Below, piece after piece: positions 2,231-5,923 of a DNA stretch of 5,923 bases (position 1 is its first letter; each line of letters starts with the position of its first letter). The DNA comes from Candidatus Iainarchaeum sp. Lineage in GTDB: Archaea; Iainarchaeota; Iainarchaeia; JAGGVJ01. Made by a program: the position numbers and the translations under genes. The notes under the pieces were generated by a model. That model had not been told where the DNA came from and did no database searches. It saw only the letters and a program-made list of their open reading frames with translations. The stretch covers positions 1 to 5,923 of the forward strand of contig JAGGVJ010000027.1 in NCBI GenBank assembly GCA_021158055.1, in the 5' to 3' direction.

Positions 2231-3244
2231 ATGAATAAAAAAAAACACATTGACGGCTATCTTGAAGTCACTCACAAATGCAATCAAAACTGCGCTTTCT
2301 GTTCTTTTCCTCCAAAAAATGACGGGATGAGCTTTAAAGAGTTAAAAGAAAAAGTCATGAGATTCAAAGAAAAAAACGTCTCTGAAATTGTCTTGACTGG
2401 AGGGGAACCCACAATAAATCCTGATTTGCCTAAATTGATAAAGCTCATAAGCGATCAAGGACTGCCCTCGCGGCTCATAACCAACGGGGTGAAACTGGCT
2501 GACAAATGCTTTGTCAAAAAACTCATAGACAGCGGTTTGGGCAGGGTGGCCCTTTCTTTCCACACGCACAAAAAAGACATTTCCGAAAAGTTATCGGGAG
2601 TTCCCGGCAATTTTGAAAAATATATCCTTGCAATGGAAAACATGACAGAACTCAAGCTATGGTTTGACATAAACACCACAATAACTTCGCTGAACCTCCC
2701 GTATCTCCCAGACACTGTGAAGTTCATTGCCGCCAATTTTCCAAAAACAGCATTTATCAGCTTTAATTTCGTAGACGCGGTGGGAAATTCCAAAAATAAT
2801 TTTGCCATAGTGCCAAAAATCAGCAGTGCAGAATATCACCTGACGAAAATCTTTCACGCATGCAAAAACTGCGGAATAGAATTCCACATAGAAAGGGTCC
2901 CGTTATGCTATATGCATTACTTTGAAACGCGATCAAGTGAAGCTCACAAATTCATAAACGATGAATTTATCCTAATCTCAAGAAAAGAAAAAGATTTCAA
3001 TCCAGTCAGGCACAAGCCAGGGGCAAAAATAAACGGGTACACAAAATCAGAACCCTGCAAAATCTGCCTTCTCAACGACATATGCGCAGGATTGCCGGAA
3101 GATTATGCTGAAATGTACGGCACCGGGGAGTTATACCCGCGTTTTAAATCAATCCAAAGCGTGTTAGCGCAGGAAACGAACAGAAAATTTGTAAAGGAGA
3201 ACCAACAATGGCAAAAATCACAAACAGAGAACACATTGTTGTAA
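2231..3244 (+). CDS. Radical SAM protein with a C-terminal four-Cys auxiliary cluster site
   Basis: Compact radical SAM enzyme, predicted cytosolic. C17, C21 and C24 (CNQNCAFC) bind the SAM 4Fe-4S cluster and GGEP lies at 57-60. TNG at 84-86 and SFHTH at 109-113 match barrel-strand positions seen again in the next gene. The C-terminal part has C226 in VPLC, then C276-x2-C279-x5-C285 followed by AGLPEDY, a layout common in uncharacterised radical SAM proteins and expected to ligate an auxiliary Fe-S cluster (twitch/SPASM-like). At 337 residues it is the simplest of the three paralogues here, with no added domain, so it may resemble the ancestral module. An A9 tract at 2237-2245 encodes Lys3-Lys5. 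The last 37 bases overlap the next gene in another frame, so the two are probably translationally coupled. The reaction and substrate cannot be told from the sequence; a peptide or protein modification is the likeliest inference. Confidence 0.9.
   Translation: MNKKKHIDGYLEVTHKCNQNCAFCSFPPKNDGMSFKELKEKVMRFKEKNVSEIVLTGGEPTINPDLPKLIKLISDQGLPSRLITNGVKLADKCFVKKLIDSGLGRVALSFHTHKKDISEKLSGVPGNFEKYILAMENMTELKLWFDINTTITSLNLPYLPDTVKFIAANFPKTAFISFNFVDAVGNSKNNFAIVPKISSAEYHLTKIFHACKNCGIEFHIERVPLCYMHYFETRSSEAHKFINDEFILISRKEKDFNPVRHKPGAKINGYTKSEPCKICLLNDICAGLPEDYAEMYGTGELYPRFKSIQSVLAQETNRKFVKENQQWQKSQTENTLL
3193..3199 (+). promoter_or_regulatory. Strong Shine-Dalgarno site inside the preceding gene
   Basis: AAAGGAG at 3193-3199 stands eight bases before the ATG at 3208 and lies inside the coding sequence of the preceding radical SAM gene. 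It fixes the start of the 764-residue protein and shows that the 37-base overlap is used for coupled translation rather than being an annotation error. Confidence 0.8.
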
Positions 3245-5502
3245 CAGGCAAATGCAATAACAAGTGCATTTTCTGCCTCAACGGAGCGATTAATCCGTGT
3301 CACAAAAGTACTGAAGAAATATTCAACCGGATTGATAAAGCTGCCAGGGAAAATATTGACAGAGTCATATTCAGCGGCGGAGAACCAACAGTACACCCTA
3401 ATATAGCTAATTTTGTGGAACACGCGAAATACAATGGTTTTAAAACTATCCAGCTTGTATCAAACGGAAGGAAATTCAGCGACCCGTCCTTTACAAAAAA
3501 ACTCGTGGAAGCAGGAATGACTGAAATTACTTTTTCTGTTCACGGGCACAACGCCCAACTCCACGACATGCTTACCGATATTCCCGGGAGCTTTGATGAG
3601 CTTGTAACAGGCATAAGAAACGCGCAGCGATTTCCAAATCTCATCATAAGTGTAGATATTGCTCTTATTTCCAAGAACTATCCTTTCCTGCCTGAAATAG
3701 CCAAATTCATAGTTGATGAACTTGAAATAAGACGCGACCTCAACATAGTCGGAACTGCTCCTTCAGGCAGAGCTTATGAAAACAGAAAAAACATATTTCC
3801 GGATATGAAAAAAGCAGCTCCAAAAATAAAAGAAGCTGTAGAATGGCTTGAAAAAAACAACATAATCGTATGGATACTAAGAACAGATCCAAAATATTTA
3901 ACAGGAATAGAAAAACATAGGGAAGACCTTCCGAAAATGATTGAGGAGATAGAAACCCGTTGCAATATCTTTCAATCAAAAAGCACTACCCCCCCGTGTT
4001 TTGGCGAGATGTGTGAATTTTGCGGAATAAAACTGATGTGTGAAAAAATAGTGTGCGCCAACAAGAATCTGGAAGCAAAAACCGGTCTTGAAAGAGCATG
4101 CATCTATCTCAGCAAAGAAAAAGAACATTGCGAGGAAACAAACAAAACAAAGGAATACAACTGGAAAAAAACAAACGAAGCAAGAAAAGAAATAGAGCTG
4201 GCCGCTCGCATTGGATTCAAAGAACTCTTTTTTAAGGGTTATGAACCCATAGAACACCCTGAATTCAACGAACTGGTGCTTTTTGCCAATAAACAAAATT
4301 TCACATGCATTGGAACAGAATGCGACGGGTTTTTATTCTCTCATGAAAAATTCGCAAAAGAAGGACGGCAAAACGGCCTGAAAAAAGTTATTTTCACCTT
4401 AAATGAAATTCCAACGCCACAAATTCTGAACGCCATAAATAACACCAAAAAATCAGGAATAGAATTTGAGTTTGAAATAACCGTCACAAACAATAATCTT
4501 GAGAATCTTCAAAAAATATTTGACGTTATTGAAAAATTTGATGCAAAAATTATCTTTCGGCTGGTAAATCCACTTCCATTTATCCAAAGATATACGCACC
4601 TTAAGTTTGGCATGAACATCATCTCAAAAGGAAACCTTGTCCCAATATTGACACAACTCCCAGCTCAATTAAAACCAATCCTGAATAAAAACAACACAAA
4701 AGTGTTTGTAAAAGACGTGCCTTTGTGCATATTCAAAGAATTTCCGGAAAGTGTAATAGAAGACTGCTTTAGCCTGAACATGGAAACAATAGACTTTGAT
4801 TCTGAATCAACCAAAGGTTCTGAACCCCTGCGCGTGGATCCTGTAAAATGCGGTGTGAATTTTCTGTCCAAGATCAAGATAAAAAGCCAATTATGTGACG
4901 GCTGTGCATATTCCTTCAAATGCAGTGGCTTGTTTGAACCATATGTAAAATGGAGGGATTTTAAAGACATTGAACCGGTAAAAACCAACGATTTGGAAAA
5001 CCGGATTCAAACACCGCCTAAAAAAAGCGAGATAACGGTGTTCTGGAAAAAATTCAAAGAAAAAAAACTTGCATTAATTGAAATTTTTGAGTGCCTCAAA
5101 ATTCCTGAAAAGAAAGAATTAAACGTTTCCATTAACTACAAAAAGATTATCAATCTTCTTGCAGAACTCGCAAAAACAAGTTCCCTAAAAGATTGTTGTC
5201 CAGATTTGGAAAAACAAATCAAAGACCTCGCACACGCAAAAGAAAAAAAGATAAATATCATTGAGATAATCTCAAATTTTTATGGGGTTTTGCTTGATGA
5301 CAAATATTCTAACTTAACATTTGAAGAAAAAACCGCCCTAAAGGAGCTTATTAAAGAATATAAAAGCGAAAAATATGGCGGGACAAACAACAAACTAAGC
5401 AAACTTAAAGCAGAATTACATAAAGACAAAAACTTCTTTTTCCCAAAAGAAAACAAAGGGTTTGCCTTGCAGGAGTGTTTGAATGGTTACTCAACAAGAT
5501 GA
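3208..5502 (+). CDS. Tandem radical SAM protein: one active domain, one degenerate domain, unknown C-terminal extension
   Basis: Residues about 1-285 form an intact radical SAM domain: C16, C20 and C23 (CNNKCIFC), GGEP at 57-60, SNG at 85-87, SVHGH at 110-114. It is collinear with the preceding protein and clearly paralogous. The auxiliary region is altered: the VPLC cysteine appears replaced (Tyr230 in DPKY), but C252, C264, C269-x2-C272-x5-C278 and C283 remain. Residues about 293-585 are a second copy. FKGYEPIEHP (342-351) aligns with FSGGEPTVHP (55-64), yet no CxxxCxxC is left, only C308 nearby, so it should not cleave SAM. This copy keeps C507 in VPLC and C563-x2-C566-x5-C572, the full auxiliary set. 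Residues about 590-764 are Lys/Glu-rich, look helical and match nothing I recognise; they contain Cys663-Cys664. The protein is about twice the usual family length and predicted cytosolic. Its start is fixed by a strong ribosome site, and its end overlaps the ATPase gene by 20 bases. The substrate is unknown. Confidence 0.9.
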   Translation: MAKITNREHIVVTGKCNNKCIFCLNGAINPCHKSTEEIFNRIDKAARENIDRVIFSGGEPTVHPNIANFVEHAKYNGFKTIQLVSNGRKFSDPSFTKKLVEAGMTEITFSVHGHNAQLHDMLTDIPGSFDELVTGIRNAQRFPNLIISVDIALISKNYPFLPEIAKFIVDELEIRRDLNIVGTAPSGRAYENRKNIFPDMKKAAPKIKEAVEWLEKNNIIVWILRTDPKYLTGIEKHREDLPKMIEEIETRCNIFQSKSTTPPCFGEMCEFCGIKLMCEKIVCANKNLEAKTGLERACIYLSKEKEHCEETNKTKEYNWKKTNEARKEIELAARIGFKELFFKGYEPIEHPEFNELVLFANKQNFTCIGTECDGFLFSHEKFAKEGRQNGLKKVIFTLNEIPTPQILNAINNTKKSGIEFEFEITVTNNNLENLQKIFDVIEKFDAKIIFRLVNPLPFIQRYTHLKFGMNIISKGNLVPILTQLPAQLKPILNKNNTKVFVKDVPLCIFKEFPESVIEDCFSLNMETIDFDSESTKGSEPLRVDPVKCGVNFLSKIKIKSQLCDGCAYSFKCSGLFEPYVKWRDFKDIEPVKTNDLENRIQTPPKKSEITVFWKKFKEKKLALIEIFECLKIPEKKELNVSINYKKIINLLAELAKTSSLKDCCPDLEKQIKDLAHAKEKKINIIEIISNFYGVLLDDKYSNLTFEEKTALKELIKEYKSEKYGGTNNKLSKLKAELHKDKNFFFPKENKGFALQECLNGYSTR
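5471..5475 (+). promoter_or_regulatory. Shine-Dalgarno site of the ATPase gene
   Basis: AGGAG at 5471-5475 is seven bases before the ATG at 5483, an ideal distance, and lies inside the end of the tandem radical SAM gene. It supports the chosen start and coupled expression of the ATPase with the radical SAM genes. Confidence 0.75.
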
Positions 5503-5923
5503 TTACAGAAATGCCTTGTTTAATGACAAAAACCATAAATTGTTCAAAAACCCAAAACACACACTCTGCGATATTCACGGAAAAAATAACGCCTATTATA
5601 ATCACAATTTATTCTGCAACAGAGACCGTGAGTTAAGTGTACTAAAAAAAATAATTGAATATTCAAAAAATCAAAAACCAGATTCTGCAATACTTACAGG
5701 GGAAAGCGGAGTTGGTAAAACATTTCTCGCAAATGAATTCATAAACAGTGTGAAAAAACAATACAAAAATGTTGAATTTGTATATCTTAATCTATCTGAA
5801 TTTGGCGACAGTAAAAAATTTCAAAAAAAAATGTTAAAGATAGCAAATAAATTCAATACTGACAACAAAAGTTTTCAAAAAGAACTGTCAAAATCAGTCA
5901 AAGAATTAAAAGACAACAAAACT
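5483..5923 (+). CDS. P-loop ATPase, AAA+/STAND-like (partial, 3' end outside the window)
   Basis: The frame is open from the ATG at 5483 to the window edge, 147 codons, with no stop. A Walker A motif, GESGVGKT, lies at residues 73-80 after the hydrophobic strand AILT. NRDREL at 46-51 resembles the Arg-Glu box that precedes the P-loop in AAA+ proteins such as Orc1/Cdc6 and in STAND ATPases. The strand FVYLNLSEF at 99-107 fits the second core strand of these ATPases. Walker B, sensor motifs and any effector domain lie beyond the window, so subfamily and role are open: remodelling or chaperone partner of the radical SAM proteins, regulator, or DNA-binding Orc1-type protein. Residues 1-45 are an Asn- and Lys-rich N-terminal extension. 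It begins inside the preceding gene (20-base overlap) with its own ribosome site, so it belongs to the same operon. Confidence 0.85.
   Translation, partial: MVTQQDDYRNALFNDKNHKLFKNPKHTLCDIHGKNNAYYNHNLFCNRDRELSVLKKIIEYSKNQKPDSAILTGESGVGKTFLANEFINSVKKQYKNVEFVYLNLSEFGDSKKFQKKMLKIANKFNTDNKSFQKELSKSVKELKDNKT

Follow-up and report, generated by a model that had tools for sequence, protein, structure and literature searches.

It is still largely unclear what role auxiliary clusters play in radical SAM enzymes (PMC10470005, PMC9012708). In PapB, the second auxiliary cluster likely mediates intermolecular electron transfer (PMC10470005). TrnC and TrnD act as a complex, and the only radical SAM activity that is strictly essential is that of TrnC (PMC12093266). 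By analogy, the two examples suggest that such parts can be played by auxiliary clusters and by partner subunits. Domains that have no SAM site but do have an auxiliary site represent a natural separation of the two functions, so mutants of each half of a protein built in this way could test what the auxiliary cluster does. The poorly understood His-Xaa-Ser (HXS) peptide maturation systems contain tandem radical SAM fusions, as well as a distinct subfamily with two auxiliary sites that occurs across many phyla. Literature searches returned no account of the function of HxsC-like enzymes, no paper with the phrase 'degenerate radical SAM', and nothing apparently relevant on radical SAM proteins in Diapherotrites.

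The HXS locus and its genes

The window, that is, the whole stretch of DNA that was analysed, is a complete contig of 5923 bp (C5) from the 1.15-Mb genome of an archaeon assigned here to the Diapherotrites, with its own family and genus among the genomes compared. All features in it lie on the forward strand. Positions 1-14 are probably the last codons (H-S-N-S-stop) of a gene for a His-rich HGS-repeat precursor that starts on contig C28; the contig ends overlap by 11 bp, and the frame reaches a stop. Then follows a PapB/HxsB-like radical SAM protein of 667 aa (77-2080), a relative of the SPASM peptide maturases, with a Pfam score of 52.4 bits, an NCBIfam PapB match of 1.8e-31 that is below the cut-off, and an extra Cys-rich C-terminal part. 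Relatives of this protein (617-651 aa) are found in sister loci, and one from a complete genome in Candidatus Fermentimicrarchaeum limneticum (L125:6563-8473). A single-domain paralogue of 337 aa with SAM and auxiliary sites (2231-3244) overlaps by 37 bp the gene for the 764-aa fused protein (3208-5502), which is the subject of this analysis. The 337-aa protein belongs to a clade outside what we call subfamily A (described below), members of which lie within ~200 bp of a subfamily A gene in ten other loci; relative to these, the order of the 337-aa and fused genes is reversed here. At the contig end, an AAA-type ATPase gene is interrupted after its N-terminal part (5483-5923), and its frame can be followed into the end of contig C29. 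Further along C29, in convergent orientation, lies the gene for an 831-aa protein (L011:12550-15045). Judged from its ORF and alignment, this protein is a sister of the 764-aa fusion: the two share their domain layout, and their tails are related.

From the overlap with C28 and the in-frame continuation of the ATPase into C29, we infer the joins C28-C5-C29. If both hold, the series starts with HxsD-like genes and HxsB and continues with the HGS-repeat precursor, the 667-aa protein, the 337-aa protein, the 764-aa fusion, the AAA ATPase and, reversed, the 831-aa protein. With C28 joined in this way, the locus is recognised as an HXS locus by HxsB (426.5, cut-off 370) and an HxsD-like protein (56.4, cut-off 41). 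Matches to HxsD itself are below the cut-off, as are those of the precursor to HxsA4 (1.9e-9) and HxsA3 (9.1e-8). The locus holds many HxsC-like paralogues, and the same kinds of genes recur in sister loci, both in other Diapherotrites and among bacteria.

Some further observations were made in related loci. Prepilin-peptidase-like membrane proteins, judged by eye, recur in archaeal and bacterial HXS loci (L010:8168-9307, L032:4788-5855, L034:7261-8331, L120:10111-11088). In bacterial loci, peptides resembling HGS/HAS-repeat precursors are found beside subfamily A genes (L130:7242-7598, L163:6202-6699, L117:3689-3934). Very long proteins of 1168, 899 and 1134 aa (L093:4049-7555, L093:1126-3825 and L135:4206-7610), from a Woesearchaeota and a Bacillales MAG, each contain at least one radical SAM domain of the same family as the 764-aa protein. 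Proteins of ~210 aa whose match to the family profile is confined to its auxiliary-site end (L033:6222-6851, L040:449-1096) adjoin a gene for a class-V aminotransferase (cysteine desulfurase-like).

The two halves of the 764-aa protein

The initial annotation ended the protein at residue 585 (base 4965), but the ORF continues to 5502. Based on the ORF, Pfam, NCBIfam and a family HMM built from paralogues, the full protein consists of a radical SAM domain (residues 1-285, 3208-4062; Pfam PF04055 E 2.1e-24), a pseudo-radical SAM domain lacking the SAM-cluster triad (residues 290-596, 4075-4995) and a helical C-terminal extension with no confident Pfam match (residues 601-764, 5008-5502). Scanning with the family HMM gives two matches, at residues 7-282 (E 5.9e-80) and 307-594 (E 2.4e-36). 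The two halves are repeats of each other, as had been proposed, and a BLASTP of one half against the other (E 4e-9) is far beyond chance. The tail of ~160 residues is mostly helical, and its end overlaps the next gene. It shares the end motif FFFxK-KGF with the tail of the 831-aa sister, and a Pfam search with both tails gave no match above the cut-off.

In the first half, the motif CxxxCxxC (C16/C20/C23; 3253-3276) and GGEP (residues 57-60; 3376-3387) can be read directly. Together with a PF04055 score of 87 bits over residues 10-141 (cut-off 29.5), they place it in the radical SAM superfamily, and as predicted from its motifs it is apparently active in SAM cleavage. The nearest named families in NCBIfam are HxsC4 (NF038332, 147.5 bits) and HxsC (TIGR03977, 125.7 bits), with scores below the cut-offs of 500 and 267.9. 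The same is true of the TIGR04347 pseudo-SAM family for the 764-aa protein (68.8, cut-off 525), and the SPASM domain PF13186 has no match at E 0.1. The cysteine of the VPLC motif is indeed absent from this half, with a lysine in its place. This had been taken to leave the auxiliary cluster to the second half alone, but the first half has an auxiliary site of its own, of the form CX4CX2CX5C (C264, C269, C272 and C278; 3997-4041). Since these four cysteines are invariant across 20 aligned relatives from subfamily A, including the 831-aa sister, which has no SAM site, the first half probably binds a SAM cluster and an auxiliary cluster of its own.

The second half has KGYEP (4234-4248) at the position of GGEP, with GYEP at 344-347 aligned at an offset of 287 residues. 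There is no CxxxCxxC near its start, and at most one of the three cysteines of the triad is aligned, so it does not qualify as a catalytic radical SAM domain. Its auxiliary set C507, C563, C566 and C572 (4726-4923) is invariant in 36/36 aligned relatives. Taken alone, this half is matched by HxsC4 at 3e-8. The full-length AlphaFold model is weak here (mean pLDDT 66.8, pTM 0.49), and a model of the second half with 36 relatives in the input reaches a pLDDT of 81.8 and a pTM of 0.82, with alternating strands and helices. In a structure search with this second model, radical SAM proteins rank top; it aligns with viperin over 222 residues (Z 17.4, 3.0 A) and with MoaA over 243 residues (Z 16.9, 3.9 A). 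The predicted fold is a partial TIM barrel like those of MoaA and viperin and not an unrelated fold. Going by sequence and model, the second half is a radical-SAM-family domain that has lost the SAM triad and has an intact predicted auxiliary site of four cysteines. The earlier picture of an active half joined to a pseudo half thus stands in terms of fold, loss of the SAM site and the retained auxiliary site; an auxiliary role for the second half alone and an origin by duplication do not.

Origin of the fusion and its 831-aa sister

Subfamily A, a label used here for ~25 proteins that include the first half of the 764-aa protein, is found in Aenigmatarchaeota, Cloacimonadota, Elusimicrobia, Omnitrophota, Patescibacteria, Spirochaetes, Verrucomicrobia and others (organism names are those of the MAG records). 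In nearly all of its members, CX4CX2CX5C replaces the other auxiliary pattern. The first half groups in this subfamily with a FastTree support of 0.992 (0.992-0.995 for the CX4CX2CX5C clade), and the second half falls outside it, among other paralogues (split support 88); by BLAST it is closest to the corresponding half of the 831-aa sister, at 27% identity. Internal duplication of one domain, the origin first proposed, was rejected on these grounds. Because the first half is 37% identical to subfamily A genes in other phyla (E 7e-62) and 24% identical to its own second half, the sequences indicate that the protein is a fusion of different paralogue lineages and not a recent duplication.

Most subfamily A members have a second auxiliary site after the first, ~55-65 residues further on in forms of ~380 aa and ~200 in others, and in most of them no barrel can be detected between the two sites (in one it is partly recognisable). 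As they keep the second site all the same, the arrangement of SAM site, first and second auxiliary site looks like the core of the enzyme. It may also be that the pseudo-domain is ancestral to subfamily A and has been eroded elsewhere, so that the barrel-less second site of the ~380-aa relatives would be its remnant; this is a question of origin, compatible with any electron-transfer or binding role as preferred below, and we consider it a little less than an even bet. An erosion series can be laid out from the full barrel in the 764-aa and 831-aa proteins, via L096 (463 aa), where hmm 146-296 is still detectable, and linkers of ~200 residues that are detected in their last part only (L105, L130, L122, L115), to the ~55-65 residues of the ~380-aa forms. 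In a tree of the short second auxiliary region, that of the 831-aa sister groups with those of subfamily A (support 0.96, short alignment), but no such grouping was obtained for the 764-aa protein (support 0.3-0.6). Profile comparison of the long linkers in L122, L115, L105 and L130 is significant for the last ~100 residues only; outside these, homology to the barrel is not significant, and later fusion of a neighbouring paralogue fits equally well.

The 831-aa sister aligns with residues 44-594 of the 764-aa protein (E 3e-45, ~27% identity). It has no SAM triad in either half, the three cysteines of the first half being substituted, and both auxiliary cysteine sets are kept. The proposal that one half retained SAM cleavage would therefore apply to the 764-aa protein and not to its sister, which, judging by its residues, is most simply a non-catalytic partner. 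Tandem radical SAM fusions are common in this family and in HXS loci, usually with a SAM site in both halves. Only 3/293 domain sequences lack the triad (not counting those truncated at a contig end or broken up by the search); all three belong to the 764-aa and 831-aa proteins, and all keep the auxiliary cysteines. What is unusual in these two proteins, as far as their residues tell, is that the SAM site is lost while the auxiliary site is kept. No relatives of the fused form were found in GTDB contigs searched with conserved stretches of both fused proteins, and none among 87 genomes of the class; viral contigs, searched likewise, yielded weak single-domain matches only. This genome was thus the only one in which a fused form with a recognisable pseudo-barrel turned up.

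Such a distribution would fit a second half that is a relic, a fused paralogue without a role that is now decaying; so would the finding that, among the complete domains of the family, the SAM triad is missing from just three, all of them in the two fused proteins. Decay is highly improbable: neither ORF (764 and 831 codons) is interrupted, each protein retains all eight auxiliary cysteines although the two share only ~27% identity, and they can still be aligned over residues 44-594 of the 764-aa protein.

Role of the second half and comparison with known systems

The explanation we favour, at about an even chance, is that the 764-aa protein acts in the HXS locus as a radical SAM enzyme that modifies peptides, and that its pseudo-half provides an accessory cluster, used either in electron transfer or in substrate binding. 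The first half would cleave SAM and carry an auxiliary cluster on C264/C269/C272/C278. The second half, descended from a radical SAM domain of another paralogue lineage and no longer able to bind SAM, would hold a further cluster on C507/C563/C566/C572, which by analogy with the second auxiliary cluster of SPASM proteins may exchange electrons with the catalytic half or help in peptide binding. The substrate would be the HGS-repeat peptide. In the main rival explanation, the pseudo-half is a scaffold that holds the repeat peptide or its leader, with a cluster that is structural or ligates the substrate and carries no electrons. The barrel core persists, and is predicted with confidence, despite the loss of SAM binding, the probable substrate is a long repeat peptide, and one of the PapB auxiliary clusters binds the substrate thiol (PMC10470005). 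Against this reading, the second auxiliary site is present in most relatives of the first half with no detectable barrel, and therefore the site matters without one; we regard the scaffold as the less likely reading, though a serious one.

The 764-aa and 831-aa proteins might also assemble into one complex that cleaves SAM at a single site and has four auxiliary Fe-S sites, in which three of the four barrels would be purely cluster carriers. This is rather unlikely. The position of the two genes on different contigs, joined by inference only, counts against the favoured explanation, as do the weak full-length model, which does not place the two clusters relative to each other, and the occurrence of the fused form in this genome alone. 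If such a complex did exist, duplicated barrels would have been turned into an electron relay or a cradle for the repeat peptide.

Among known systems, HxsC and HxsC4 (TIGR03977, NF038332) are the closest, being the best NCBIfam matches of the first half, and the locus contains HxsB, HxsD-like proteins and an HGS-repeat precursor. Unlike them, the 764-aa protein is below both cut-offs and carries a SAM-less second domain and a helical tail. SPASM/twitch enzymes (PapB, SuiB, PqqE, AnSME) likewise combine a catalytic SAM cluster with C-terminal auxiliary clusters, here predicted, and the folds align, but the 764-aa protein has no Pfam SPASM match and its second auxiliary site is on a complete extra partial TIM barrel. 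The TIGR04347 proteins of haloarchaea are also named as radical-SAM-like without a SAM site; the match is weak, and this comparison is by model only. In FbiC (FO synthase) there are two radical SAM barrels per chain as well, but both are active (PMC11917521), whereas the 764-aa protein lacks the SAM-cluster triad in one. In TrnC-TrnD (thuricin CD, PMC12093266) and Dph1-Dph2 (PMC11048331), one of the two partners has a SAM or Fe-S site that is either less essential or regulatory, which resembles the situation here, although in both cases the partners are separate chains and Dph belongs to a non-canonical radical SAM family.
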